Source: an uncultured Bacillota bacterium (GTDB taxonomy: Bacteria > Bacillota > Dethiobacteria > DTU022 > UBA8154). From it: 57,337 nucleotides of DNA. Made by a program: the position numbers and the translations under genes. A model generated the notes under the pieces. It searched no databases, had not been told where the DNA came from, and was given only the letters and a program-made list of their open reading frames with translations. Positions 40,517 through 55,405 of the stretch are shown one piece after another; within the stretch, counting starts at the first letter, position 1, and every line of letters begins with the position of its first letter. The stretch is taken from positions 1-57,337 of the forward strand of contig CALJJZ010000065.1 in the NCBI GenBank assembly GCA_937973635.1. The letters are read 5' to 3'.

Positions 40517-41122
40517 TTAGCCGGAGACGCTAGCCGACGGCGGCTTGAACAGCGGTGCGCCTAGGGGCAGCACCACACGGCCAAAGACCTCGTTGAGGTA
40601 GATGGCGCAGGCCACGTAGACCATGCCCAGGGCAAAAATCAGCAGTAAGTACCAGCCGATTGTGGCTACGCCCGCGCCCACTGCGCCGAGCATAGCCAGC
40701 CCTACGATCCAGAGGCCGACATCAAGCAAAACAACAAGATAAAAAACAGTCGAACTGACAAGTCCTGTGGCATATAAAAGGGCGAGAACATAAGCGGCTA
40801 CCACTAAAAAGCCGATACCGTTAAGGTAAGGTGGTGCGGGGCTTTTGGTCCAGATCTTGATAATTTCTCCGAAAGCAGGAGTAATACAGAGCATAAAGCC
40901 AAAAAGGACCAGAGGTGTAGCCAGTAACAAACCACCCCGGCGGTAATCAATGATCCCGCAAATTACCTGCACCAGGCCGCCGAAAAGGAGCCAGGGAATA
41001 ATAATAGGTGCCCCTTCGGGGGGTATCCACCCGAGGTTCAAGGCACTGAGGGGAATGACCACGGTACACAGCCCCAGGATCCCGCAAGCCTGCGTGTTGC
41101 CCCAAAAAACATCCTTCTCCAT
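40517..41122 (-). CDS. GPR1/FUN34/YaaH (SatP-like) transporter
   Basis: 201 residues with six membrane helices. NTQACGILGLCTVVIPLSAL and LLFGGLVQVICGIIDYRRGG match the family, whose hallmark NPAPLGL appears here in a degenerate form. Members move acetate or related short acids. It sits at the downstream edge of the aromatic gene cluster but behind its own promoter. A product acid is a plausible but unshown substrate. AGGAGGAG precedes the ATG. Confidence 0.75.
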   Translation of the reverse strand: MEKDVFWGNTQACGILGLCTVVIPLSALNLGWIPPEGAPIIIPWLLFGGLVQVICGIIDYRRGGLLLATPLVLFGFMLCITPAFGEIIKIWTKSPAPPYLNGIGFLVVAAYVLALLYATGLVSSTVFYLVVLLDVGLWIVGLAMLGAVGAGVATIGWYLLLIFALGMVYVACAIYLNEVFGRVVLPLGAPLFKPPSASVSG

Positions 41123-41259: not shown

Positions 41260-41361
41260 GCTAAAAATATTTGAAAAACTTAAACTAGAGCAGACCCCGC
41301 TCCCTGGCATGGGTACCCGAGTCGGCGGGGTCACATTTGGGCTAACTGCAAAGACTAAAGA

Positions 41362-41553
41362 TTAAAAATGGGGAGCCGTGGAGCCTGTTATTTTTTCCAC
41401 TGCCGCTTTAAAAATATTTATTGTTTCCGGGCTGTCCGGTTCTGTAGCGGCCAAAACTGGAGAAATTTTTGTTGCCTGGGCAAGCTGCAGCTTTCCCGTA
41501 TGCCCTTTTTGGTCAGCAACATACTTATAATATTTTAATAATTTTTCCCCCAT
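41362..41553 (-). CDS. 63-residue protein, unknown
   Basis: A small protein with a basic first third and no membrane segment: MGEKLLKYYKYVADQKGHTG at the start, a helical middle and TGSTAPHF at the end. It begins 2 bases after the stop of the sensor-domain gene, so it is almost certainly translated with it. I see no known motif. The short gap suggests a functional link to sensing or chemotaxis, but this is only context. Confidence 0.55.
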   Translation of the reverse strand: MGEKLLKYYKYVADQKGHTGKLQLAQATKISPVLAATEPDSPETINIFKAAVEKITGSTAPHF

Positions 41554-41555
41554 AA

Positions 41556-42167
41556 TTAATCATCTCCTATCCTGAACTCTTGCAGGGCCTCAATATAAGG
41601 CTTAGCCACATCACCCCAGGCAGCAGGCGGCTGGATCAGCCATCCGCAGTTCTCGTCCCCTTTGCCTACGCATACGGGTTCTATGGCAATGAGTTTTGCG
41701 CCAAAAAAGCCTGAACACCACCCTGAAGCGTATCCCATTAAAGACCAGCAGACAGGTTCCTTAGCTGTTTCAAAGTACGACAGGTGTTGTTCGGCTTCAT
41801 AAGAATTGGACCAGATACCTGTAAAATAAAACTCACCTTTATTTCTGTCAAAACGGATTTCGGTAGGAGTGGCCTTGACTACCCCTTCCCAGGTATGGAT
41901 GACGGGCCCGGAAGCTAGAAGATCCATTTCACTGTCAAAAGTGTAATTGACCTTCATCTGCATGAAATCGGCAAAGCCGTTCTGAAAGCCAAATTTAAGA
42001 AAAAACTCCCTGGCTTTGGACCAGCCGATTTCGTCAATGAGCTTATTGCGCAGGTACCCTATGGCGTTGGTATCGAAGATGACCAGCCTGCTGTCTTTAA
42101 ACATCGTCAAACCTGTTTCAAGATTAAATTTTAAGTCTTTGGAGAAATCGAAATCAGTGGCTTTCAT
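41556..42167 (-). CDS. Stand-alone XylR_N/V4R aromatic-sensor protein
   Basis: 203 residues. The N-terminal half matches the XylR_N activator domain (RLVIFDTNAIGYLRNKLI, ...FLKFGFQNGFADF) and the C-terminal half a V4R domain (YASGWCSGFFGAKLIAIEPVCVGKGDENC), with the E-x2-C-x7-C metal-site spacing seen in DmpR-type phenol sensors. DmpR and XylR have a sigma-54 AAA domain and HTH after this module; here the chain stops, so it cannot activate transcription alone. It lies between a chemoreceptor gene and a small orphan in the UbiD operon. It probably binds phenol or a related aromatic. Confidence 0.78.
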   Translation of the reverse strand: MKATDFDFSKDLKFNLETGLTMFKDSRLVIFDTNAIGYLRNKLIDEIGWSKAREFFLKFGFQNGFADFMQMKVNYTFDSEMDLLASGPVIHTWEGVVKATPTEIRFDRNKGEFYFTGIWSNSYEAEQHLSYFETAKEPVCWSLMGYASGWCSGFFGAKLIAIEPVCVGKGDENCGWLIQPPAAWGDVAKPYIEALQEFRIGDD

Positions 42168-42311
42168 TTTCTTACCCCCATCATCTTATTCTTATGCTGC
42201 CTTGGGCCTAGCCAAAAAATGCTTTTCACCTCCCTTTCCTTGCAGTTCCCTGGCCACCTCCTTTAGCTGATTTTTTTTGTGTTTGTGGCCGCTTCGCCTT
42301 TGCTAAAGCAG

Positions 42312-43535
42312 TTACTTTGTTTTTGAGGCGGCGTTAAAACGGTCCAGCACAGCCAATAACTTTTCGTTGGTAAGGGGCAGCTCCTGGGCCAAGGCGGTAA
42401 TCTCTTCCATGGTGGCCGATTGTTCTTCGATCGCGGCGGATACTTCCTCGCTTCCTGCGCTTACCCCCTCGGAAGCTGTGGCGATGATATCAATTTTTTC
42501 TACAATTTTCTCTACGCCTTGAATAATATTCTTTAAACTTTCGCCTGTCTGGAGGATAACATTTGAGCTTTCCTGGACTTTTTGAGCGGCGTAGGCCATT
42601 TTGTCTACAACATTTTTACTCTCTTTCTGGGTATCGCTGATCAGCAGGGCAATTTCGGAAGCGGCCTTTCCTGACTGCTCTGCCAGCTTGCGCACCTCGT
42701 CCGCTACTACGGCAAAACCCCTGCCCTGCTCCCCGGCCCTGGCAGCTTCAATGGCGGCATTTAAGGCCAGAAGGTTTGTTTGGGCGGCGACGTTCTTGAT
42801 CATGTTCACAATAACGCCTATTTTTTCCGCGTGGCTGTTTAAATTATTGACGGCACCGGTTAGCTCTTTAATTATTTCATTCGTCTGCTGGATGGTCTTT
42901 ACCGCAGCCTCGATGGCCTCTTTGCCGCCTTCAGCTTGCAAAGCGATGTCTATGCTGACTTCAGACATCTGCTGGGTACTTTCATGCATCTTGCGCGCAT
43001 TTTCTGCAAATTCATTTGCCGAGGCAGCTACCTCCTGCAGTGAAGCGCTCATCTCCTGGGAAGATGCGGCCAAGGATTCTCCTGCGGAGAACATGGTGTC
43101 TATTTCCCTTTTTATCTCCAGGACCATGGCCCTGAGAGAATTATTTAATGTTCCCAAGGCCTTTGTCAGGGTTCCAAACTCTTCCGGCAGCTGCGAGAGC
43201 TCAGCAGAAGGGCCTGCAGAGAGGGTGCCGTTTTGCATTTTCTCCACGGCCAGGGCAAGACTAGTTAATCGCCCCAAAAGGGATCTTATTAGCAAGGAGA
43301 AATATATGTAAACTAGCAAGGCGACAAAAAAGGCGGCCGGGATTAAGCTTTTGCCATAAGCGCCGGTCACTGCATCTACAGCGGAGAACTCCGCCCCTGC
43401 CTTTAAGGCGGTTGTCTTGATTAGTGGCATGAACCAAAATAAATTTATTAGTAGGAACAGGATTGTTACTGCTAATACACCGGACAGCAACAACCTTTGT
43501 TTCAGGCCAATTGACAAGCCGCTTTTCTTCAGCAT
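42312..43535 (-). CDS. Methyl-accepting chemotaxis protein without extracellular ligand domain
   Basis: 407 residues. Two membrane helices (about 14-36 and 65-87) leave only about 28 residues outside, too few for a ligand-binding domain. A HAMP-like linker is followed by the signalling domain with [22 protein letters not shown], the CheA/CheW contact tip. It sits 45 bp after ubiX and 144 bp before the stand-alone V4R sensor gene, inside the aromatic operon. The signal must be cytoplasmic or come from a partner. The ATG follows GGGAGG. Confidence 0.85.
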
Positions 43536-43580: not shown

Positions 43581-44138
43581 TTAAATGCCCTGCCAGCGGT
43601 TAAAGAGGTTATGTTCGATATGGAACTGGTCCAAGACCTTGCCCACCGTCTGGTTGATGATGTCGTCTAGGGTCCGGGGAAGGTGGTAAAAGGCGGGCAT
43701 GGGCGGCAGCAAAATGGCCCCTGCTTCTGCCACCATGGTCATGAGGCGCAGGTGTCCCAGGTGCAGCGGCGTCTCCCGCACGACCATGACCAGCTTCCTT
43801 TTCTCCTTGATCTGCACGTCGGCCGCTCTGATCAACAGGTTAGTATTGAAGGAATTGGCAATGGCGGAGAGGCTTTTAATGGAACAGGGGGCGATAATCA
43901 TGCCCTCTGTGCGGAAAGAACCGCTGGAGATGGAGGCCGCCAGGTTGCAGATGCTATGCACCTCTGCGGCCATCTCCTCTACCTGTCTGACCGTGTATCC
44001 CGTTTCTAGTTCAATGGTTTTTTTCCCCACGTCACTAATTACCAGGTGTGTTTCCACACCGGCGCGGTGCAGTTCCTCCACGATACGCACGCCGTAGATT
44101 GCGCCTGTTGCCCCAGAGATACCGACGATAATTTTCAA
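43581..44138 (-). CDS. ubiX: Flavin prenyltransferase UbiX
   Basis: 185 residues, the usual UbiX length. The N-terminus KIIVGISGATGAIYGVRIVEEL is the FMN-binding start, with APCSIKSLSAIANSF and RKLVMVVRETPLHLGHLRLM. UbiX makes prenylated FMN, the cofactor of UbiD enzymes. Its start overlaps the stop of the preceding ubiD-like gene by 4 bases, so the pair is coupled. Confidence 0.95.
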   Translation of the reverse strand: MKIIVGISGATGAIYGVRIVEELHRAGVETHLVISDVGKKTIELETGYTVRQVEEMAAEVHSICNLAASISSGSFRTEGMIIAPCSIKSLSAIANSFNTNLLIRAADVQIKEKRKLVMVVRETPLHLGHLRLMTMVAEAGAILLPPMPAFYHLPRTLDDIINQTVGKVLDQFHIEHNLFNRWQGI

Positions 44139-45508
44139 GGTTGAGGCCTCCTTTGCAAGATTTCTTTAGCCCTCGCCGCAGCGGCCCGGGGCAGGGTAAG
44201 GCGCCGGTAACGCTCTGCTGCCGGCCCCCCCGGGCGGGCGGTGGCATCGAAACCCAGCTTGGTTGTTTCTCCGTTTTCCACGGAAGGATCGATGACGTAA
44301 CCTTCCAGGCCGGAGAGGACGATGAGGTCCCTGTCGCCCTGGAAACGGGTAGCCAGAGCCCAGAGCACCTCCCGGAAACTGTAAATATCCACGTCTTCAT
44401 CCACCACGATGACATGCTTCAGGCGCCGATCCAGGTTAAGGGCCAGGTGGATAATGCGGCGTATCTCCTGGCGTGTCAGGGAGGGGGCCACCTGGATTAC
44501 ACCCTGGAAGGTCAGGGATCCGGGCAGGTAGGCCACGTTCAGTACCCCTGGCGCCTGTCTGTTTAGCTCCTGCCATAATTCTGCCCCGGTGAAGGCGGAG
44601 AGGATAATATCTGTTTCGATGCCCCAGGGAGGGATGACGGCAAGGACGGGGTTGCGGCGGCAAGTCACGGCCCGTACTTCCATGATGGGGCTTACATTTT
44701 CAAAATAATAGCCCGTGCTTTCGCCGAAGGGACCCTCCTTTTCCCTAATGCCAGGCATGATCTCCCCCTCCAGGATGATCTCTGCCAGCGCCGGCACAGG
44801 CAGGTCCACGCTTTTGGCCGGGACCAGGGGCACAGGCCGGCCGGCCAGGGCTCCCGCCAGTTCCAGCTTGCTGTTCAAGCCGTGTTTGAGGGTAACGGCA
44901 GCCGCCAGGATTTCAGCCGGGTGCAGCCCCAGGGCCACTGCGGCGGGCAGGGGTTTGCCCTGTTCTTCCATGCTTTTAAAATAGTCAGCAAGGGGGGGGT
45001 TGGCCAGGAAAACGCCCAGCCGGTTCTTCCCTTTAAGCTGCAGCCGGTGGATGCCCGAATTCAGTCTATGCGAAAAGGGATCTTTGGCCATGAGCACCCC
45101 CGCTGTAATGTAAGGCCCGGCATCGCCTTCGTGGAAGAGGGGAACGGGTAGGAGAGCTGGTAAGTCCAGCTCTCCTGTGATTACTTCCTCCTGGCAGGGT
45201 GCCGGGCCCTGGTAAAGTTCCGGCACCAGCCCGGCTGCCCGTTTTTGCAGATAAACTTCCCGCAGCTCCGCCTCGGCGCAGTCCAGAGCCAGGGCCAGCT
45301 TGCGGCGGCTTGCCAGCAGGTTGCCCGCCACTTTTTTCCCCCCGTAGCCGCTCACGTTTTCTAGAAGTACCGCCGGGCCTCCCTGCTCTCCTAGGACTTC
45401 CTTGAGCACAGCGGTAACTTCAAAGTGGTGCCTGACTTCTTCTTTGATGCGCAGCAGCTCCCCTGCTGCTTCAAGCTGGCGCAAAAAGCTGCGTAAGTCT
45501 ACCTCCAT
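44135..45508 (-). CDS. UbiD-family decarboxylase (third copy, coupled to ubiX)
   Basis: 457 residues. The UbiD catalytic set is visible: Arg in SGIHRLQLKG and the E-x4-E of EGPFGESTGYY after LEGEIMPG. It is more divergent from the other two UbiD proteins of this operon than they are from the carboxylase pattern, and is coupled to ubiX. It may decarboxylate or carboxylate a related aromatic (for example 4-hydroxybenzoate) or be an auxiliary form. GGAGGTAG precedes the ATG. Confidence 0.85.
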   Translation of the reverse strand: MEVDLRSFLRQLEAAGELLRIKEEVRHHFEVTAVLKEVLGEQGGPAVLLENVSGYGGKKVAGNLLASRRKLALALDCAEAELREVYLQKRAAGLVPELYQGPAPCQEEVITGELDLPALLPVPLFHEGDAGPYITAGVLMAKDPFSHRLNSGIHRLQLKGKNRLGVFLANPPLADYFKSMEEQGKPLPAAVALGLHPAEILAAAVTLKHGLNSKLELAGALAGRPVPLVPAKSVDLPVPALAEIILEGEIMPGIREKEGPFGESTGYYFENVSPIMEVRAVTCRRNPVLAVIPPWGIETDIILSAFTGAELWQELNRQAPGVLNVAYLPGSLTFQGVIQVAPSLTRQEIRRIIHLALNLDRRLKHVIVVDEDVDIYSFREVLWALATRFQGDRDLIVLSGLEGYVIDPSVENGETTKLGFDATARPGGPAAERYRRLTLPRAAAARAKEILQRRPQP

Positions 45509-45536
45509 TTTAATCTACCTCCAATTTGCTTTTGCT

Positions 45537-45794
45537 CTACCTCCAGCGTTCCGGGATCCTCTCCACCTGTTCTAGGACTTTGATGGAATAGGGGGCGGGG
45601 TGGATCTGGCCGCGGCCAAAACGCACCTGCAGCCCCTGCTCATATTTCTTGGGGTCCGGGGAAACCAGGGCCTTAACATTTTTATAACAGTATTTATACT
45701 TGCCTGGGGTCAGGTCCCTTAAGGCCAGCTGCAACTCCTTGTCTTCGGGCAGGTCTGCCAGGCTGTTCACAAAAACGTCGTAATGCAGCATCAT
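45537..45794 (-). CDS. ppcC: Phenylphosphate carboxylase gamma-subunit-like protein
   Basis: 85 residues, about 10 kDa, with no similarity to common domains. The N-terminus LHYDVFVNSLADLPEDKELQ and the basic middle (KYKYCYKNVKALVSPDPKK) are compatible with the small PpcC subunit. The identification rests mainly on size and position between two ubiD-like genes beside a HAD gene. It is 12 bp after the alpha/beta-type gene. AAAGGAGG precedes two consecutive ATGs. Confidence 0.65.
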   Translation of the reverse strand: MMLHYDVFVNSLADLPEDKELQLALRDLTPGKYKYCYKNVKALVSPDPKKYEQGLQVRFGRGQIHPAPYSIKVLEQVERIPERWR

Positions 45795-45806
45795 TATAAC
45801 CTCCTT

Positions 45807-47246
45807 TTACCTGGCTTTAAAGCCGTATTTTTCCCAGTTGGCCAAGACCTTGTCCTGGATTTCCTTGGGGTAAACTGTCTTGAAGGAGACAAGGCGGGGC
45901 ACTTCACTCAGGGGATCCCAGTCGATGGGGAAGGTGCAGTCAAAGACCACTTTGGGCCCTGCCATCTTCAGGCGCTCCTCGTAACTGAGGAAGGGGTAGA
46001 GGGGGGTACCGGCGCCTTCGTAGATATGGATCCCTTTTTGGGGATGGCACTTGGTGGTCAGGGCGTGGATAACTTCGTTGTAATTGTAAATATCTGTCTG
46101 GTCGTCCACCACCACGACCATGTGGAACCATGGCCCCAGTTTGCTGCCGAAAACAAGCTGGGCGATCTGGGCGGCAATGTTGGAGTAGATGGGCTTTACG
46201 CCGATAACGACCAGGTGGTGGGTCGATTCGGGCCACATAAACGCCCCCGTGATGGGGATACCCTGGCTGCGCAAAAGGGCATCCATCTCCAGGCAGAGGG
46301 AGAAGGAGCGGAGCAGCTGTCCTTCGTCGGTGGGCACACCCATATTGGAGATGGTGGTGATGGGGTCGTTGCGGAAAGTGATGGCTTTAACCCGGTAGCA
46401 TGTGCGCAAGTCCCGGGGGGAAGTGCGGTAACCCGTGTATTCGCCGAAAGGCGCTTCTTCCAAGGAGACGTCGGGCAAGATCTCCCCCTCGATGACTATT
46501 TCTGCATGGGCGGGCACTTCCAGGTCCACGGTCTCGCACTTGACCAGTTCCACCGGTTTGCCCATGAGCATCCCTGTGTAATCCGACTCGGGGATGGGGG
46601 AGGGGGCGCAGGCGGCGATGGCGGAGAGGGGGTCAGGCCCGATGACGGTGGCAAAGGGCATGGGCAGGCCCCGGGGCTTATATTTGCCGTGGAAAACCTT
46701 GCCGCCGTCGGAGAAGGGCAAAAGGGGACCCGTCATGGTATAGCTGTCGTAACACATTTGGCGGTACATGCCCCAGTTGACGTCGCCGTTGTCCGGGTCT
46801 TTGGTGACAACAAAGTGCCAGGTGGCCAGGTAGCGCCCCCCGTCGCCGTCGTGCACCATGGGTGCCGGCAGCATGAAGAGGTCGGCGTCTTTGCCCAGGA
46901 GGATATTTTCCTTGCAGGGGGCCTGTTTTTTGTCCACAAGGACAGGCTTTACCGGCGGCCGGTTGGTGCGCTTCAGGTACTCGGTGGCAATCTGAGGGAT
47001 GCTACTATTAGGATCCAGCCCCAGGCAGATGGCCAGTTTTTTGTATGTGGATATGGGGGCGCCTAGGTAGCGGTGGCCGGGATAATCTTTGATCCTGTTC
47101 ATCAAGGGAGAAGGGCCTTGCTCTTCACATACCTTGCGCACGATGGCCCCCGCTTCCAGGTCCCAATCTACCTCCTGGTTGATCGTGACCAGCTCTCCCG
47201 CTGCGTCCAAGGCCTTAATATATTCGCGGTTGTCTTTAAATGCCAA
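45807..47246 (-). CDS. UbiD-family phenylphosphate carboxylase subunit
   Basis: 479 residues. UbiD catalytic Arg is in NWGMYRQM and E-x4-E in EAPFGEYTGYR; VVVVDDQTDIYNYNEV and the C-terminal FPIDWDPLSEVPR are typical of PpcA/PpcB-type members. Together with the other large UbiD gene, the 10-kDa gene and the HAD gene it gives the four-part composition of phenylphosphate carboxylase. I cannot decide between alpha and beta. Start is TTG (GGAGGTGG upstream). Confidence 0.78.
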   Translation of the reverse strand: MAFKDNREYIKALDAAGELVTINQEVDWDLEAGAIVRKVCEEQGPSPLMNRIKDYPGHRYLGAPISTYKKLAICLGLDPNSSIPQIATEYLKRTNRPPVKPVLVDKKQAPCKENILLGKDADLFMLPAPMVHDGDGGRYLATWHFVVTKDPDNGDVNWGMYRQMCYDSYTMTGPLLPFSDGGKVFHGKYKPRGLPMPFATVIGPDPLSAIAACAPSPIPESDYTGMLMGKPVELVKCETVDLEVPAHAEIVIEGEILPDVSLEEAPFGEYTGYRTSPRDLRTCYRVKAITFRNDPITTISNMGVPTDEGQLLRSFSLCLEMDALLRSQGIPITGAFMWPESTHHLVVIGVKPIYSNIAAQIAQLVFGSKLGPWFHMVVVVDDQTDIYNYNEVIHALTTKCHPQKGIHIYEGAGTPLYPFLSYEERLKMAGPKVVFDCTFPIDWDPLSEVPRLVSFKTVYPKEIQDKVLANWEKYGFKAR

Positions 47247-47363
47247 GATTTTTCCACCTCCGTGTTTGGGATAAGCAAAAAGTTAATAATTAGATTAATA
47301 ATTAGATTCATGACAATCAACTAGCTGCATAACTGGCCCTGCAAGCCTGCTTTTTGTTTTTTA

Positions 47364-47909
47364 TCACCACCCCTTGCTCGTTACTTTTTCACAGAACGCG
47401 TCCCATTTACCCTGGGCGATCAGGATCATCTCTGCCAGTTCCCGGGCTACGCCTTTGCCCCCTGCCTTTTCCGTGACCCAGTGGGCTGCCTCCAAGGCTT
47501 GCCGCTTGGCGTCGGAGGGGGCCACAGCGAAACCTACCCTGCGCATTACCCCCAGGTCGATCACTTCGTCACCCACGTAGCAAACCTCTTCGTCGGTAAT
47601 ATTCAATTCTTCCAGCAGTTTTTCATACTGGGCCACTTTTTCTTTGGTTTCGTAGTAACGCTTGACGCCAATGTCTGCCATACGCGCTGCCACGGTCTTG
47701 GATTTGCGCGTGATAATGGCAATCTCGATGCCGCAGAGCATCAGGGCATTGCTGCCGAAACCGTCCTCGTGGCAGAAGGCGCGCAGGCGGTTGCCGTTGT
47801 CGTCGTAGATGACCGTATTGTCCGTAAGCACCCCGTGCACATCAAAGATCACCAGCTTGACTTTTTTAGCCCGTTCCACGGCGTCTTCCCAATTTTTTCC
47901 AAAAGACAT
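47364..47909 (-). CDS. ppcD: HAD (KdsC/YrbI-like) protein, phenylphosphate carboxylase delta-subunit-like
   Basis: 181 residues from ATG 47909. The cap-less HAD fold of KdsC is recognised by VIFDVHGVLTDN at residues about 20, IAIITRKSK (motif II) and VCYVGDEVIDLGVM (motif IV). The second Asp of the usual DVDG is His here, so ordinary HAD phosphatase chemistry may be impaired. In Thauera the delta subunit of phenylphosphate carboxylase is such a HAD protein. The gap on its 5' side contains a perfect 28-bp palindrome. Confidence 0.78.
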   Translation of the reverse strand: MSFGKNWEDAVERAKKVKLVIFDVHGVLTDNTVIYDDNGNRLRAFCHEDGFGSNALMLCGIEIAIITRKSKTVAARMADIGVKRYYETKEKVAQYEKLLEELNITDEEVCYVGDEVIDLGVMRRVGFAVAPSDAKRQALEAAHWVTEKAGGKGVARELAEMILIAQGKWDAFCEKVTSKGW

Positions 47910-47942
47910 CTTTTCTTTTCCCCTTTCTATATTTCCTTTATT

Positions 47943-47970
47943 TGTGCCCCGCACCATGGTGCGGGGCACA
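47943..47970. repeat. Perfect 28-bp palindrome between ubiD-like and HAD genes
   Basis: TGTGCCCCGCACCA and TGGTGCGGGGCACA abut with no loop. The region is transcribed leftward between the first carboxylase gene and the HAD gene. No T-tail follows, so it is more likely an mRNA-processing or stabilising stem, or a regulator site, than a terminator. Confidence 0.7.
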
Positions 47971-47999
47971 GGCTCATGGCTCCTTTATGCCGGCTGAAT

Positions 48000-49409
48000 T
48001 TAGAACCCGTATTCTTTCCAGCGGGACTGGACCTTGGCCAGCATCTCTTTGTCCAGGGCAATCTCCACGGGCTTATTTTCCCACTCGTACGGGGTTGTGG
48101 CGTCAATTAAAATGCGGGAGGTAATGAGCTTGCTGGAGTTGGGATCGAGGGCAGGATCCAGGGGCGTGGAGCGTCCCCGCTTGATGATCTCGGTGTCACG
48201 CAGAGGGTCGTAGCGCACGGACATGGCCCAGAGCACCCTGCCGATGTCGTCGGCTTTGATGTCGTCGTCAACTACAATAACCCCCTTGACACCGTAGCTG
48301 CCAGTGGTGCTGGCGATAATAGCATTGGCTACCTGGGCGGAGTGGCCGGGATAGCTCTGCTTTACGGAAGCGATGACCCAGAAACGGCCGGCGGACTCAG
48401 GGGGAATATAGACAGATTGGATGCCGGGGATGCGCATCTGCTCTAGGTCGGTCCAGAGGGAGGCATTGCGGGTGAAAGCCAGGAGCATGTGGATGTCTGT
48501 TACGGGCCTGCCTACAGAGGTTGCCCAGAGGATGGGGTTGTTGCGGTGCAGGACGCGCTTCACTTCCAGGCACGGTTTTTTGATCTCTTTGTCGATCTCA
48601 TCGGTATAATAACCTGTGTACTCGCCGAAAGGGCCCTCCGGCTGCAGGTTGTTGGGGTCGATCTCGCCCTCCAGCACGATCTCCGCCGTGGCCGGGATGG
48701 GTAGGCCGGTATAGTCGCTGATAATATACTCTGTGGGTTCCCCTCTAATCGTGCCTACCACGTCGTACTGGCTGACCCCTTCCTGCTGCAGCGCCCCCGC
48801 CATAAAGAGCAGAGGATCGCAACCGATTACGGCGGCTGCGGGCATTTTTTGCCCCATCTTTTTATATTTCTTCATGATGCGCTCGCCCCGCTTGCCGGGC
48901 AGGATCTGCACGCCGCAACGGCGGCTGTCCAGCATTTGCATACGGTAGGTCCCCAGGTTCTCCTTGCCGCTGTCGGGGTCTTTAACAATGAGGAAAACTG
49001 CGGTGCCGATATAGCGGCCTCCGTCCAAGGGGTAAAACTTGGGCACGGGGAATTTCTCCAGATTTACGTCCTCGGCGCTATCCACGTTTTCCAGGACGGG
49101 GCCTGTGGCCACCTCCAGAGCGGGGATGACTTTACCCAGGGAAAACTTCATCCACTCTTTGGAGAGGTCGCACATGGAGTAGGTATCTTTCATCCCCATG
49201 GCGATGGAAAGGCGCCGGGGCGTGCCAAAAGCCCCCGTCAATACCGGCGAGCTGTAGCCCTTTACGTTCTCAAAAAGCAGGGCCGGTCCGCCCCTTTCTT
49301 CGTTGAGTTTGGAGATGTGGGAGATCTCCAGGTTCCAGTCCACTTCAGCCGTAATGCGCTTTAGTTCCCCGATTTCCTCACAACGGTGGATAAAACCTCT
49401 TAAATCCAT
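48000..49409 (-). CDS. UbiD-family phenylphosphate carboxylase subunit (first gene of operon)
   Basis: 469 residues. Catalytic Arg in NLGTYRMQ and E-x4-E in EGPFGEYTGYY; VIVVDDDIKADDIG and DATTPYEWENKP match PpcA/PpcB-type UbiD proteins. It is the most upstream leftward gene; GGGAGG precedes the ATG. The next two gaps are about 90 and 117 bp, long for tight coupling, which allows differential expression of subunits. Confidence 0.8.
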   Translation of the reverse strand: MDLRGFIHRCEEIGELKRITAEVDWNLEISHISKLNEERGGPALLFENVKGYSSPVLTGAFGTPRRLSIAMGMKDTYSMCDLSKEWMKFSLGKVIPALEVATGPVLENVDSAEDVNLEKFPVPKFYPLDGGRYIGTAVFLIVKDPDSGKENLGTYRMQMLDSRRCGVQILPGKRGERIMKKYKKMGQKMPAAAVIGCDPLLFMAGALQQEGVSQYDVVGTIRGEPTEYIISDYTGLPIPATAEIVLEGEIDPNNLQPEGPFGEYTGYYTDEIDKEIKKPCLEVKRVLHRNNPILWATSVGRPVTDIHMLLAFTRNASLWTDLEQMRIPGIQSVYIPPESAGRFWVIASVKQSYPGHSAQVANAIIASTTGSYGVKGVIVVDDDIKADDIGRVLWAMSVRYDPLRDTEIIKRGRSTPLDPALDPNSSKLITSRILIDATTPYEWENKPVEIALDKEMLAKVQSRWKEYGF

Positions 49410-49950
49410 TACTAAAGCCTCCCTTGTTTGATCATACTGCCAAACCGGCCAATACCTGGCCGGGGAAATCCCCTTGAAGCCTGATTTATTTGTTCAATTA
49501 AGCAGTTTTATGGGGAGATGGGGCTAAAGGAGCACTGAACCAAATAATAACTGAACTAAACTAAACAATATTAGTGAAGTTTATATAATCAGGACAGTAG
49601 AAAATATTCGCACTTTTCTACAATAAAATATCTTAGCCCATCTAGCGTGTCAATGGCTAAATTGGTGCAAAATTTAGAGGCAGAATATGACCACTTTGGA
49701 CAAATAAAGATTTTTCTTTTAAAGACCTCTCGGTGTAAGGGGTACAGGGAAGGGGGTGTTTTTTGGGCAAAACATATCCAAAGTAGTTAAACTAGTAGGG
49801 TAAAAATTCCCCTAAATTAGCCATTGACACCGCCAAAAAGTTAGGGTAACTTATTTTTAAAGTATAAAAAATTTGAAAAGTTGCCATAAGAAACGCTTGT
49901 TAGGCAAGGCAATAAAGAGGCAATATTCCTTGCAGGAAAGGGTTAAGCTG
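49410..49950. promoter_or_regulatory. Divergent control region between carboxylase operon and regulator
   Basis: 541 bp with no supported gene. A 14-bp inverted repeat, GTGTCAATGGCTAA (49647-49660) and TTAGCCATTGACAC (49817-49830), brackets about 156 bp. A further TTAGCCCAT at 49633 makes the left copy itself a TTAGCC...GGCTAA dyad. AT-rich stretches follow. No sigma-54 -24/-12 consensus was found. Confidence 0.6.
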
Positions 49951-51909
49951 ATGAAACAAAACAGCAATATCGTAAGTTTTCCGGGAGCTGCCAAAGCAAC
50001 TCCAGCCCCAGATGCTGAAAAAATTGCTCCCGCGGGCGCGGCGGCGGAGGGCGGCGCCGCTGCTTCCCTTACCGAGGAAGTGGAGCTGCTGCGCCAGGAG
50101 CTGCTCAAAGAGCGGAAACGGGTCCTCCAGTGGCGCACCCTGAGTGAAGCTTCCGTGATCTTGAACTCCAAGCTGCACTCCGAAAGCCTGCCCCTCAAAA
50201 TTATCAAATACGCTAAAAAGTTGGTGGCGGCGGAAGCAGGGCTCCTCGCCCTGGAAGAAGTAAAAGAAAACGGCTTGAGGATCGTAAAGCACTACACTTT
50301 CTCCGACGAGGCCAAAGAAGAGCTGTTTGAAGAAATAGTGCAAAAACCCCAGGGAGCAATCGAAATAATCCTGCAAAAGGGCGAAGTGATCAACCGCAGC
50401 TCAACTTACTATAACGCCGACGACTTGCTGGGTTTCTACACAGTAAAAAGGAATCTCCTCGGCATACCCCTCTACGCAGGCCGGAAAATTATCGGTGCCC
50501 TGCTCATGGCCAATAAAAGCGAGGAGGCTTCTTTTACCCAGGACGACCAGGATCTGCTGATGATTTTAGGTTCCCAGCTGGGGATCGCTTTAGAAAATTC
50601 GCGCCTTTACGAGAAAATCGACAAGGAACTGCAGGCAAAGCTCGACGAGCTGGAACGGGTCAACGAAATACTGAGGAAGCAGCATATTATCTTGGAAAAG
50701 TCCCTGGAGCTGCATAACCAGTTGACCGGGCTGGTGCTGGGGGGCAGAGGGATCGAAGCGATCTGCGAGACCCTTGCTGCTTTTATCAATGCCCCCGTCC
50801 AGGTAGAAGACCATAATCTCAACGTCAGGGCCACAACGATCAACAGTGAAGTGCAGGCCTTTGTCAGCGGAAAACAGCTGGTTGCAGACGATGCCTACAG
50901 CTACCAGGTCCATATTCTTTTTCAGGAAAGAAAGCCGGTGGAGCTATACCCGGATTTAAACACGACCCAGTACCTGGTCCCCATTGTGGCTGGGCAGCAG
51001 AACATGGGGTTAATTACCGCCGTTATTGCGCACCGGGCCCTTAAGCCCCTGGATAAAGTGGCCATGGAGCAGGGCGCTACCATCATTGCCCTGGAGATGC
51101 TCAAGCAGCGGGCCGCTTTTGAACAGACCAAGCGCTTAAAAGAGACTTTTATCGAGCACGTCCTCGATGAAAACTTTGAATCTGTCGAATGGATGCGCCA
51201 CCGCGCCCTGCAGCTGGGCTTTAACTTAAGAAAAGCATTCCAGGTTATAGCCGTGGAGGTCTCGCCGGGGCGGGATGACCGGAGCCGGCCGGAGCTGTAC
51301 CAGGCCCTGCGGGAGTATTGCCTTGACACTTTCCCCCACGGCGTTGTGCTCACGAAAAACAACCATATCTTAATTGTGGTTTCCTTCCAGAACAAAGAAA
51401 GGAGAGACGACCTGAAGTTGCTCCTCGAAGCGTTGAAGGAACAGCTCTCTGGCATGGTGCGGGAAGGGGACTGGTGGATGGGTCTGGGCACGCCTTGCGA
51501 TAAGCTGGAAGATTGTGTTGTCTCTTACCGCCATGCTGTTACTTCCTTAAGCGTAATGAAAGCATTGAACCTAAAAAACAGGGCCGTTTCCTATGATGAC
51601 CTGGGGGTATTTTCCCTAATTGAGATCAACCCCACCCACTTTGCCGAGTTTGTCAAGCGGACCATCGGCCCGCTCATCAGTTACGACCAGAAACACAAGA
51701 CGCAGCTCATGAGCACTTTAAGCCTCTTTTACAAGTATAACTGCAATGTATTGAAAGCGGCACGCCAAGGCTATCTCAACCCCAGCACCATGAAGTATAG
51801 GCTGCGCAGGATTCAAGAAATTACAGGCCTGGACCTAAAAGAACCAGAGACCAGCCTGCAGCTGCAGCTGGCCATGCGCTTGATAAACTGTGATTTTTCG
51901 GAAACGTAA
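49951..51909 (+). CDS. GAF/PucR-type transcriptional regulator
   Basis: 652 residues from ATG 49951 (AGGAAAGG upstream; a TTG at 49873 would add an atypical 26 residues). A short acidic coil (about 20-60) is followed by a GAF domain (LGIPLYAGRKIIGALLMANK ... LGSQLGIALENSRLYEKI), a second coil, a ligand/CdaR-like middle and a C-terminal HTH_30 helix-turn-helix (LFYKYNCNVLKAARQGYLNP, MKYRLRRIQEITG). Such proteins activate catabolic genes in response to substrates. It lies exactly between the two divergent halves of the aromatic cluster, its probable targets. Confidence 0.83.
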   Translation: MKQNSNIVSFPGAAKATPAPDAEKIAPAGAAAEGGAAASLTEEVELLRQELLKERKRVLQWRTLSEASVILNSKLHSESLPLKIIKYAKKLVAAEAGLLALEEVKENGLRIVKHYTFSDEAKEELFEEIVQKPQGAIEIILQKGEVINRSSTYYNADDLLGFYTVKRNLLGIPLYAGRKIIGALLMANKSEEASFTQDDQDLLMILGSQLGIALENSRLYEKIDKELQAKLDELERVNEILRKQHIILEKSLELHNQLTGLVLGGRGIEAICETLAAFINAPVQVEDHNLNVRATTINSEVQAFVSGKQLVADDAYSYQVHILFQERKPVELYPDLNTTQYLVPIVAGQQNMGLITAVIAHRALKPLDKVAMEQGATIIALEMLKQRAAFEQTKRLKETFIEHVLDENFESVEWMRHRALQLGFNLRKAFQVIAVEVSPGRDDRSRPELYQALREYCLDTFPHGVVLTKNNHILIVVSFQNKERRDDLKLLLEALKEQLSGMVREGDWWMGLGTPCDKLEDCVVSYRHAVTSLSVMKALNLKNRAVSYDDLGVFSLIEINPTHFAEFVKRTIGPLISYDQKHKTQLMSTLSLFYKYNCNVLKAARQGYLNPSTMKYRLRRIQEITGLDLKEPETSLQLQLAMRLINCDFSET

Positions 51910-52319
51910 CTGCCGGAGGGTAAGATAACAGACAGGGCATGTCAGGCCGGCTAAAATCCACCAGTCTTAGCCACTTCATCATCTACACGTTGCTCCAACC
52001 ATCACACCTGCAGCGGCGACAGCCGACTTTGCCATCCAGTATGGAAATTCCTGCTTAATGTCTGATGAAAGAAGCCAAAAATATTTGCCCCTGCTCAGCT
52101 TTGGCCGTGGTGGTGTAGGGTTGCCTGCGCCACAGGGGAACACATACCTGAGCAGTTATATCTAGCTAACTAATAATTAAGGGGGGGAAAAGGGCCCTTT
52201 TGCCTGTAAGCAAGGCATCACAAGCCGGCCGTTGTTTCCTGTGGCGCGTCTCCAGCTGGGACGCAGTTGTTGGTAAGGATTCAGCCAGTGGCCATTAAAA
52301 AATGAAAGGGGAAAAGAGG
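51910..52319. promoter_or_regulatory. Upstream region of phenylphosphate synthase genes
   Basis: 410 bp with no supported gene. GGCTAA (51949-51954) and TTAGCC (51967-51972) repeat the half-sites found at 49633-49830. A perfect AAAAGGGCCCTTTT (52188-52201) is also present. A promoter was not resolved. Confidence 0.5.
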
Positions 52320-54158
52320 ATGACAGAAAAGCGTGGTTTTTTAAGTCCGCATGAGGTGCCCCCTGTCCCGGGCACTGAAGGTTGGGAGCGTATGTATCCC
52401 TATTACTACATCTTTACGACAGAAGACAAGGAAATGCAAGAGTATGAAAATAAGTCATTCTGGTATTATGACGGGCTGCATTATCCTGAGCCCATGTATC
52501 CCTTCGACCTGATCTGGGACGAAGCCTGGTATATGGCCCTTTCTCAAAATAACAGCCGTATCTTTTCCATCCCTGCCTCCATGGGGATCGACCACCGTAT
52601 CCTTAACGGCTATCTCTATATCTCGCCCGTGGGCATAGAGGATCCGGAGGTAATCGAGAAGCGGGTGGCCGATTTCATGAAGCGGGCCGGCTACTATTAC
52701 CAGAACTGGGACGAGCTTTACGGTAAGTGGAAAGATAAGGTCACCTCGCTCATTAAGACAGTGGAAAATATGGAGTTCAACGCCCTTCCTCAGCTTGAGG
52801 ACGAGTCTGTGGTCTTTGAAGGCAAAGGCATGAGCAGTGGCTTTGAACTGGTGCGCAAGTACAACGAACTGATCAATTATGGCCTAGAGGCATGGCAGTA
52901 CCACTTTGAGTTCCTGAACCTGGGCTATGCCGCCTACGTGATTCTGGCCGATTTCTGCAAGAAAGTTTTCCCTGGCATGGACGACCGTACCCTCTCTAAA
53001 ATGGTGGGCGGTGTTGATGTGATCCTCTTCAAGCCTGATGAAAACCTGAGGGAGCTGGCCAAGCTGGCGGTCCAGCTGGGGGTCCAGGATAAGATTAGGC
53101 AGAGCGCCAAGCTGGATGATGCCCTTAAAGCCCTTGGCGAGAGTGAAAAGGGTAGGGAGTGGGTCAAGGCCTTTGAAGGTGCCCAGTACCCCTGGTTCTA
53201 CATGTCCACGGGCACGGGCTGGTACCACAACCACTGGACTTGGTTCGACAGGGTGGAGATCCCCTTTGGCAACATCAAGAATTATATTGAAATGCTGGAA
53301 AAAGGGGAAAGCATCGACCGTCCCATTGAGCAGGTAAGGGAGACAAAGGAGAAGCTGGTCAAGGAGTACACCGAGCTGCTCAGCAACGAAGACGACAAGG
53401 CGACCTTCCAGCAGCTGCTGGGCGTAGCCCAAACCTGCTTCCCCTACGTGGAGGACCACAACTTCTATATTGAGCACTGGTTCCACGGTGTCTTCTGGCA
53501 GAAGATGCGCCAGCTGGCAAAGATCTTTGTGGACCATGGCTTCTTTAAAGATGTGGAAGAGATCTGGTATCTCAACCGCTATGAGCTGGAGCAGGCCCTC
53601 TACGACCTGGTAACCTCCTGGGCCACCGGGGTCAGGCCGCGGGGACCTTCGTACTGGCGGGCGGAGATTGACTGGCGCAAAGACGTCATCGAGAAATTCC
53701 GCCAGTTCACACCGCCGCCGGCGGTGGGCGTTACGCCGGAAGTGGTCAACGAGCCCTTCACTATCATGCTCTGGGGTATCACCACCGGCTCCATTGAGTC
53801 CTGGCTTGATGCCAGCGGTGTCTCGCCGGAAGATGTGACGGAAATCAAAGGCTTTCCCGCCTCCTCTGGCGCGGTGGAGGGGATTGCCCGCGTGATCCGG
53901 AGCCCCGAGCAGCTCAACGAGCTGCAGGACGGGGAGATCCTTGTCGCCTCCACCACTTCGCCGAGCTGGACGCCCGTTTTCAACAAGATCGGCGCTGCGA
54001 TCACAGACGTGGGCGGAATCATGTCCCATGCGGCCATTGTCTGCCGTGAATATGGTCTGCCTGCGGTGGTGGGCACGGGCCTTGCTTCCTCGGTGATCAA
54101 GACCGGCCAGAAGCTGCGTGTGGACGGGGACAAAGGCACGGTTACTTTAATAAAATAA
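52320..54158 (+). CDS. ppsA: Phenylphosphate synthase subunit A-like (PEP-synthase phospho-His/central domain)
   Basis: 612 residues from ATG 52320 (AAAGGGGAAAAGAGG upstream; the ATG at 52302 lacks a site). The C-terminus has the swivelling phospho-His domain: KGFPASSGAVEGIARVI, DVGGIMSHAAIVCREYG with the phosphorylatable His at about residue 570, and LPAVVGTG. The ATP-grasp domain is absent and supplied by the next gene. This split matches PpsA/PpsB of Thauera-type phenylphosphate synthase, where PpsA transfers phosphate to phenol. The length (about 70 kDa) fits. Residues 1-450 are the phenol-facing part, Trp/Tyr-rich. Confidence 0.8.
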   Translation: MTEKRGFLSPHEVPPVPGTEGWERMYPYYYIFTTEDKEMQEYENKSFWYYDGLHYPEPMYPFDLIWDEAWYMALSQNNSRIFSIPASMGIDHRILNGYLYISPVGIEDPEVIEKRVADFMKRAGYYYQNWDELYGKWKDKVTSLIKTVENMEFNALPQLEDESVVFEGKGMSSGFELVRKYNELINYGLEAWQYHFEFLNLGYAAYVILADFCKKVFPGMDDRTLSKMVGGVDVILFKPDENLRELAKLAVQLGVQDKIRQSAKLDDALKALGESEKGREWVKAFEGAQYPWFYMSTGTGWYHNHWTWFDRVEIPFGNIKNYIEMLEKGESIDRPIEQVRETKEKLVKEYTELLSNEDDKATFQQLLGVAQTCFPYVEDHNFYIEHWFHGVFWQKMRQLAKIFVDHGFFKDVEEIWYLNRYELEQALYDLVTSWATGVRPRGPSYWRAEIDWRKDVIEKFRQFTPPPAVGVTPEVVNEPFTIMLWGITTGSIESWLDASGVSPEDVTEIKGFPASSGAVEGIARVIRSPEQLNELQDGEILVASTTSPSWTPVFNKIGAAITDVGGIMSHAAIVCREYGLPAVVGTGLASSVIKTGQKLRVDGDKGTVTLIK

Positions 54159-54186
54159 ATATAACTAAAATAGTAACTGAAAACGC

Positions 54187-54233
54187 CTGGCCGGAGGGTC
54201 GTTCTACGCTAGACGTTCCTCCGGCTAGGCCAG
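54187..54233 (+). repeat. Stable hairpin between ppsA and ppsB
   Basis: CTGGCCGGAGG and CCTCCGGctaGGCCAG form a long stem with a 3-base bulge and a 19-base loop, in the 176-bp gap. The tail is ACAAAAG, not T-rich, so it is more likely an mRNA stability or processing element than a terminator. Confidence 0.6.
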
Positions 54234-54334
54234 ACAAAAGCCTTTAAACGTAGTCACAACATCAAACAGGGTTTGTATAGTGTAAAAATTAAAAAGGTGA
54301 AAATTTTGGCTTTACCTCACAGGGGGGTTAAAAA

Positions 54335-55405
54335 ATGAGCAAAGAAACCAGCAACGTCTTATGGCTACATGAACTGAGCAAAGATGACCCTATGATCGCA
54401 GGCCGAAAGTGCTGTCATCTGGGGGAGATGCTGCAGGCGAAAATGCCGGTGCCTCCAGGGTTCGCCTTAACCCTCAAGGCTTATGAAACATTTTTGCAGG
54501 GCAGTGGTGCTAAAGAGGTAATTTTAAAGGTTCTGGAAAAGCATAAGCAGGAACTATTGAGCGACGTGAGCAAATTTGAAGAGATAAGCTCCTATATTAT
54601 CAACGATGTAATCCTGCACAAGGAGATGCCCGGGGAACTTAAAGAGGAAATATGCCGCTATTATGAAGAGCTTGGCCATGTCTGCAGCGATAGCGAGACG
54701 GCGGTGGCTGTCAGGTCCAGCGGGCCTATAAGTATGCCCGGTCAGTTTGACACCTTCCTCAACGTTTGCGGTTATGAGAGCTTGCTGGACCACGTGATTA
54801 AAGTCTGGGCCAGCTCCTTCAATGCCAGGGCCATGGCTTACCGCCTGCAGCGCGGCCTCGCCCTGGAGACATCTCCCATTGGTGTGGCCGTGTTAAAAAT
54901 GGTTAATGCCAGGTGCTCCGGCGTAATGTTTACCCTTGACCCGGTAAACGGCGACCCTTCCCGCATCTTTATCGAGGGGAGCTGGGGCCTAGGCGAAAGC
55001 CTGGTAAGCGGCCAGGTTACCCCGGACAAATTTATTCTGGATAAGGTAACCCTGGAAATTACGCAGAAAACCATCTGCGATAAGGCAGTAGAGCTGGTGC
55101 GCGGCCCGCAGGGAGACGTCATCCCCCGGGATGTCCCGCCGGAAAGGCGTAACATTGCCTGTCTCAGCGACGCCGAAGTCCTGGAGCTGGCTCGGATTGG
55201 CAAGCGTATTGAGAAACATTACGGCGTGGCCCAGGATATTGAGTGGGCCATTGACGACGACCTGGTCTTTCCTCGTAACATCATTATCCTGCAGACGCGC
55301 CAGGAATCTATCTGGACCAAAAAGCCAAAGGCGCCTGTGGCACCCAGAGGGAGTGCTACGGAACTGATCGCCCGCGGCCTGATGCAGGGCATCCGTCTCC
55401 ACTGA
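54335..55405 (+). CDS. ppsB: Phenylphosphate synthase subunit B-like (PEP-synthase N-terminal ATP-grasp)
   Basis: 356 residues, about 40 kDa, containing only the N-terminal nucleotide-binding part of PEP synthase/PPDK: AGRKCCHLGEM, VPPGFALTLKAYETFL, VAVRSSGPISMPGQFDTFLN, WASSFNARAMAYR, GVMFTLDPVNGDPSRIFIEG and QDIEWAIDDDLVF...ILQTR. It would bind ATP and phosphorylate the His of the preceding protein. GGGGGG precedes the ATG. A PpsC-like CBS-domain gene, the third Thauera subunit, is not seen in this window. Confidence 0.83.
   Translation: MSKETSNVLWLHELSKDDPMIAGRKCCHLGEMLQAKMPVPPGFALTLKAYETFLQGSGAKEVILKVLEKHKQELLSDVSKFEEISSYIINDVILHKEMPGELKEEICRYYEELGHVCSDSETAVAVRSSGPISMPGQFDTFLNVCGYESLLDHVIKVWASSFNARAMAYRLQRGLALETSPIGVAVLKMVNARCSGVMFTLDPVNGDPSRIFIEGSWGLGESLVSGQVTPDKFILDKVTLEITQKTICDKAVELVRGPQGDVIPRDVPPERRNIACLSDAEVLELARIGKRIEKHYGVAQDIEWAIDDDLVFPRNIIILQTRQESIWTKKPKAPVAPRGSATELIARGLMQGIRLH

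Follow-up and report, generated by a model that had tools for sequence, protein, structure and literature searches.

What does an aromatic-sensor domain do when it is encoded as a protein of its own, and with which of its neighbours does it work? The question is raised by three tandem genes on the minus strand of the window (the whole stretch of DNA analysed, 57,337 nucleotides), which follow phenylphosphate-carboxylase-type genes in the order chemoreceptor (MCP), XylR_N-V4R protein (here called V4R) and small protein (Table 1). Aromatic sensing by XylR_N/V4R is known within transcription factors and histidine kinases. The initial annotation took the locus for the sensor of a transcription factor reused in trans for chemotaxis, with the small protein as a possible linker. 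The explanation that we consider best overall, at a probability of about 0.6, is that V4R and the 63-aa protein would form a two-protein sensing module, the MCP being a local neighbour.

Table 1. Features of the locus and of the surrounding aromatic gene cluster (positions in the window)
Feature	Position	Strand	Product or character	Basis or remark
Stem-loop (GACCCCGC/GCGGGGTC)	41293..41333	-	30-70 bp 3′ of the small gene	fold
Small-protein gene	41362-41553	-	63 aa	
Standalone XylR_N-V4R gene	41556-42167	-	203 aa	
MCP gene	42312-43535	-	407 aa	
UbiX-like flavin prenyltransferase	43581..44138	-	operon end	NCBIfam UbiX 1.1e-77
Phenylphosphate carboxylase-type genes	44135..49409	-	three UbiD-family proteins, gamma-like and delta-like proteins	Pfam/NCBIfam
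Gamma-like subunit	45537-45794	-	85 aa	NCBIfam match below equivalog cut-off
Middle UbiD	45807-47246	-		assigned by similarity to neighbouring genes, without own family scan
Delta-like HAD protein	47364-47969	-		NCBIfam match below equivalog cut-off
GAF-GGDEF_2-HTH_30 (PucR/CdaR-type) regulator	49873..51909	+	without XylR_N-V4R	Pfam
Phenylphosphate synthase-type proteins	52302..55405	+	PEP-utilising mobile domain; PPDK_N; divergent arm of the cluster	Pfam

The three open reading frames lie precisely where the initial annotation had placed them, all on the minus strand, and the coordinates agree with its 2-bp gap between the V4R gene and the small gene. The MCP gene starts 45 bp behind the ubiX-like gene and is separated from the V4R gene by 144 bp, in which no terminator-like site was found on that strand. 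The stem-loop behind the small gene folds with -23.7 kcal/mol (z -1.07), no better than shuffled sequence, and is a possible candidate for the transcript end. Also 3′ of the small gene, a membrane protein is encoded on the minus strand (40517-41122), with weak similarity to acetate uptake transporters that falls below the NCBIfam cut-off. The third-position GC of the V4R (0.51) and small (0.36) genes is the lowest of the 35 window genes checked, and that of the MCP gene (0.56) is among the lowest, compared with 0.66–0.76 in the carboxylase operon; this fits a later arrival of the three genes at the operon end and gives a hint of it, short genes varying more in GC.

The V4R protein matched XylR_N (residues 7-107; 3.1e-24, 85.1 bits against a cut-off of 23) and V4R (residues 119-175; 4.9e-9, 36.6 bits against a cut-off of 31) in Pfam and no further domain, the chain ending at residue 203. 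Neither the AAA nor the HTH that DmpR/XylR-type sigma-54 regulators carry in the same chain was detected by Pfam, which bears out the description of a free XylR_N/V4R protein. It is the sole protein with a XylR_N domain in the host assembly (96% complete), and aligns nearly end to end with the PDB chains of PoxR, CapR/DmpR and MopR (E 2e-33 to 1e-30); the E-x2-C-x7-C spacing noted earlier is present as E163-x2-C166-x7-C174 and aligns with these chains. The predicted zinc set C140/E163/C166/C174 and the residues H91/W119 are invariant in all 19 standalone V4R proteins as well as in fused and solved relatives. The zinc ligands of DmpR are C151/E172/C177/C185, and H91/W119 align with H106/W134 of MopR, which, like H100/W128 of DmpR, anchor the phenol hydroxyl (PMC10715001, PMC7264223). 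By its two domains above the curated cut-offs, its zinc ligands and its His/Trp pair, the protein belongs to the XylR_N/V4R aromatic sensor family, and it is predicted to be a zinc-binding, ligand-binding sensor.

The hydrophobic pocket wall of phenol sensors is not retained, as five wall positions differ from MopR (F132 to G117, Y165 to W150, S166 to C151, Y176 to A161 and I191 to W176), a mismatch that concerns the label of phenol sensor and not membership of the domain family. W150 and A161 occur in 19/19 standalone V4R proteins and C151 in 18/19 (alanine in L083), and all three are absent from the tabulated fused and solved relatives; G117 and W176 are also found in some fused relatives. 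The altered wall makes a different ligand possible, and the natural ligand may not be phenol because the other V4R/small loci have no homologues of the phenol operon. The ligand is probably hydroxyaromatic, phenol itself not being implied by the differently shaped pocket.

A scan of GTDB species genomes with V4R alone recovered 13 loci, each encoding a free protein of 198–210 aa with 62–74% identity and an intact reading frame (13/13). All 13 hosts are MAGs, labelled Bacillota, Bacteroidetes/Ignavibacteria/Melioribacteraceae, Zixibacteria and Deltaproteobacteria, with one unplaced. In 12 of these 13 independent relatives the small gene lies directly downstream of V4R (at -8 to +21 nt), and the initial view of a phenol-sensor-type domain kept as a separate protein with a 63-aa partner therefore stands; in the remaining genome (L025) V4R is present and the small gene was not found. 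A search from the small-protein side gave five further V4R/small pairs (L073, L074, L075, L077, L083), which, having been reached by way of the small gene, are left out of the 12/13 count and bring the genomes with standalone V4R to 19 (13, these five and the window). The small gene of L075 (1498-1686), in a Zixibacteria-phylum genome, has an internal stop next to an intact V4R gene, owing to sequencing error or decay. Given L025 and L075, the pair is not strictly obligatory. It is also rare: among 398 same-phylum genomes one other standalone V4R was found, and a search of four genus mates recovered no small protein. Among plasmid sequences, the two best V4R matches examined were fused proteins and no match reached 60% identity, while the small protein had no match.

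Both the V4R and the small genes are under purifying selection. In a phylogenetic tree a branch with support 1.0 separates the 19 standalone V4R proteins from the fused sensors, so that, as far as this tree goes, standalone V4R is a clade of its own and not the product of recent local fission. Of the proposed reuse of a transcription-factor sensor, the free sensor-type domain is thus upheld but a recent local origin is not. A Bacillota MAG (G125/G418; L009/L029, L011/L030, L014) carries the V4R/small pair together with two fused XylR_N-V4R-GAF-type proteins, which indicates that the pair is separate from the fused regulators; one of the fused proteins lies opposite hydrogenase-like genes. The adjacency of the genes could instead reflect joint transfer.

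The small-protein family had no match in Pfam, NCBIfam or PDB profiles, and its gene can be taken as real because pN/pS between relatives is 0.09–0.54. An AF2 model from 13 sequences has four helices (pLDDT 86, pTM 0.68), and Foldseek returned nothing significant for it: the likeness to xre/Cro-like HTH folds (ClgR, E 0.71, TM 0.49) and to the N-terminal helices of H-NOX (TM 0.53–0.65, E about 3–9) is in both cases not significant and without a Pfam match, although the reported relatedness of HNOB and V4R domains (PMC5847659) lends some interest to the H-NOX likeness. The small protein is basic (pI about 9) and the V4R protein acidic (pI about 5), an opposition that recurs in most pairs; the small protein of L026 is not basic (pI 6.4).

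Homologues of the small protein also occur apart from V4R. Nine loci (L066-L069, L085-L089), whose genomes belong to the same phyla as the deltaproteobacterial MAGs G424 and G425, encode the small domain as the N-terminal part of a fusion with a GAF-type region and no output domain; GAF was matched in L068 (2.8e-14) and assigned in the other eight by alike sequence. In a second operon type (L031, L034, L078, L079, L080, L092, L093), a homologue is followed by two unassigned proteins of about 172–201 and 194–212 aa, and a protein of roughly 100 aa and an aminotransferase class V-like gene are often present as well; none of the scanned proteins without assignment there has a family match, and the two were rejected as V4R-like after profile comparison gave no significant similarity. 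Further homologues lie 11 bp behind a dCache-HAMP sensor without an output domain (L033, 3463-5171), 24 bp behind a membrane protein with a weak HAMP and without a signalling domain (L106, 7850-8932), and two genes from an MCP whose outer part is short (L031). Within the family to which the window belongs, one homologue is located between two tandem proteins of about 170 aa, and the gene opposite encodes a 1625-aa protein with resemblance to a cation-transporting ATPase (L028, 715-8169, G400 contig 24). Partnership with sensors that lack an output domain is the recurring theme of the family, but a metabolic role is conceivable for the second operon type. More tentatively, the small protein may be a new signalling domain, a plug for outputless sensors in trans (V4R and HAMP-ended proteins) or in cis (GAF), with V4R/small as a widespread sensing system wired here to the MCP or the sensor-less regulator.

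The V4R/small module is, in our estimate, very probably real, and physical contact between the two putative partners is likely. In the proposed mechanism, a V4R dimer would bind a hydroxyaromatic compound, and binding would shift the C-terminal helix, at which the protein here terminates and which in DmpR runs on into the linker joining the AAA domain. The basic small protein would then dock on the acidic V4R protein and relay the signal to an output whose gene lies elsewhere. A fused AF2 model, obtained by reading L018 through its natural in-frame stop, reached pTM 0.73 and pLDDT 70, with parts of V4R at low confidence. Where the phenylphosphate-carboxylase operon ends, two candidate outputs are at hand, the regulator without a V4R input and the sensorless MCP. 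Something other than these two has not quite an even chance of being the output of the pair; the regulator is possible but less likely, and the MCP is a rather doubtful choice.

The alternative that survives best is a split one-component regulator, in which V4R (with the small protein) would supply the GAF-GGDEF_2-HTH_30 regulator with its phenol input in trans and replace the fused XylR_N-V4R of relatives. The window regulator is homologous to the regions behind V4R in L009, L005/L117 and L006/L119. The regulators of L117 (1361-3781) and L119 (6105-8477) have the architecture XylR_N-V4R-GAF-GGDEF_2-HTH_30 and stand beside related phenol-type clusters, with UbiX-like and UbiD- or synthase-like homologues adjoining them (66–74% identity for UbiX/UbiD3); the window regulator, which has no XylR_N, matches that of L117 with 35% identity over 602 aa, from just behind V4R to its end. 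Because the window cluster lacks a fused V4R but has a free one, which is also the sole XylR_N of the host genome, the regulator is a candidate target of the pair at least as good as the MCP. However, the standalone clade is not derived from the fused domains on the tree, homologues of the window regulator and of the phenol genes are missing from all other V4R/small loci, a GAF domain is already present in the regulator, and the two genes are 7.7 kb apart on opposite strands; we therefore regard the split as possible but unlikely.

The reading of the initial annotation, in which the sensorless MCP would receive the aromatic signal in trans from V4R and its small partner and so confer phenol chemotaxis, is one that we do not favour and hold to be improbable. 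The MCP is a genuine family member (MCPsignal 1.5e-44, 152.3 bits against a cut-off of 34.6) with a weak HAMP (0.027, below cut-off), and no sensor domain was found in it; hydropathy predicts two membrane helices (about residues 14-37 and 62-84) with about 25–28 residues outside, in line with the roughly 28 extracellular residues first described. The lack of a sensor, the common strand and likely common transcript, and the low third-position GC of all three genes, as if they had arrived together, would suit such signalling, as would the small-protein homologues near the short-outer-part MCP (L031) and directly behind the outputless HAMP proteins (L033, L106). Against it, the neighbourhoods of the 13 relatives (L014-L026, 7–20 kb) contain an MCP in L023 alone, where it is convergent and differs in type (PAS and HAMP), and none stands beside the five pairs found from the small-protein side; with the window counted, an MCP is thus near the pair in just 2 of 19 loci and is convergent in one of them. 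In addition, a similar short-loop MCP in the same genus (43% identity over residues 9-400) has unrelated neighbours, with no V4R or small gene within 12 kb, and hence an MCP of this shape needs no V4R. All 19 genomes with standalone V4R encode MCPs (2–25 each), which is compatible with taxis but confounded by kinship and habitat; taxis is accordingly not refuted by MCP-less hosts, of which there are none (0/19). The neighbourhood comparison rules out the MCP as a conserved third member. Judged by these neighbourhoods, the conserved unit is V4R plus the 63-aa protein, and the MCP, a local neighbour, stands outside it. Hence, the co-occurrence predicted for the three genes applies to V4R and the small protein but not to the MCP, and from the initial annotation as a whole the free sensor with its small partner is retained, whereas the tie of V4R to a sensorless chemoreceptor finds no counterpart in the relatives.

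A metabolic or binding role, with V4R/small as an enzyme or carrier related to the ATC-hydrolase branch of the fold, appears quite improbable. It could draw on the reported relatedness of HNOB, V4R and ATC hydrolase domains (PMC5847659), on the operons in which a small-protein homologue, two unassigned proteins and an aminotransferase class V-like gene are combined (L031, L079, L080, L093), and on a homologue near an ATC_hydrolase-like protein that scored below cut-off (L032); yet sensor-type ligand and zinc residues are conserved in the V4R protein, the small domain is fused to GAF, and the two unassigned proteins resemble V4R to no significant degree. A fused regulator in decay, of which the V4R gene would be what is left (the protein is equivalent to the sensor half of such regulators), is a reading that we reject, since 62–74% identity across phyla, frames intact in 13/13 relatives, purifying selection and a separate clade contradict decay.

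The two-protein sensing module differs from each known system with which it was compared. With the sensor domains of DmpR/CapR, MopR and PoxR, the window V4R shares XylR_N-V4R over the whole length, the zinc ligands and the His/Trp pair, but it lacks the B-linker, AAA and HTH, has a different pocket wall and is accompanied by a small partner encoded in a gene of its own. PheR of Aromatoleum aromaticum EbN1, a single-chain sigma-54 one-component activator, adjoins the pps-ppc cluster (PMC10715001) and thus likewise links a XylR_N/V4R phenol-type sensor to a phenylphosphate synthase/carboxylase cluster, whereas the window V4R is free and the window regulator is of PucR/CdaR type without V4R. The Bacillota regulators of L117/L119 resemble the window in the kind of cluster and in regulator homology beyond V4R, but V4R is fused there, and the separate V4R of the window comes from another V4R clade. 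H-NOX (HNOB) proteins are reported to feed MCPs or kinases (PMC9814294), which would make them a related fold with such outputs; the weak fold likeness of the small protein (TM 0.65, E about 4) is not significant, and unlike H-NOX it has no haem site or HNOB match. In Pseudomonas putida, taxis to (methyl)phenols is metabolism-dependent and of Aer2 type (PMC6600141); Aer-like receptors sense FAD/redox via PAS, whereas the window locus has no PAS and has a free V4R.

No description of a free V4R coupled with an MCP was found in the literature. The V4R/small pair, spread over several distant bacterial groups, looks like an undescribed sensing unit. A free V4R that retains one and the same tiny partner in different phyla would, if true, be a different way of reading an aromatic signal, and the pairing would suggest a function for a small-protein family that is absent from Pfam, NCBIfam and PDB profiles.
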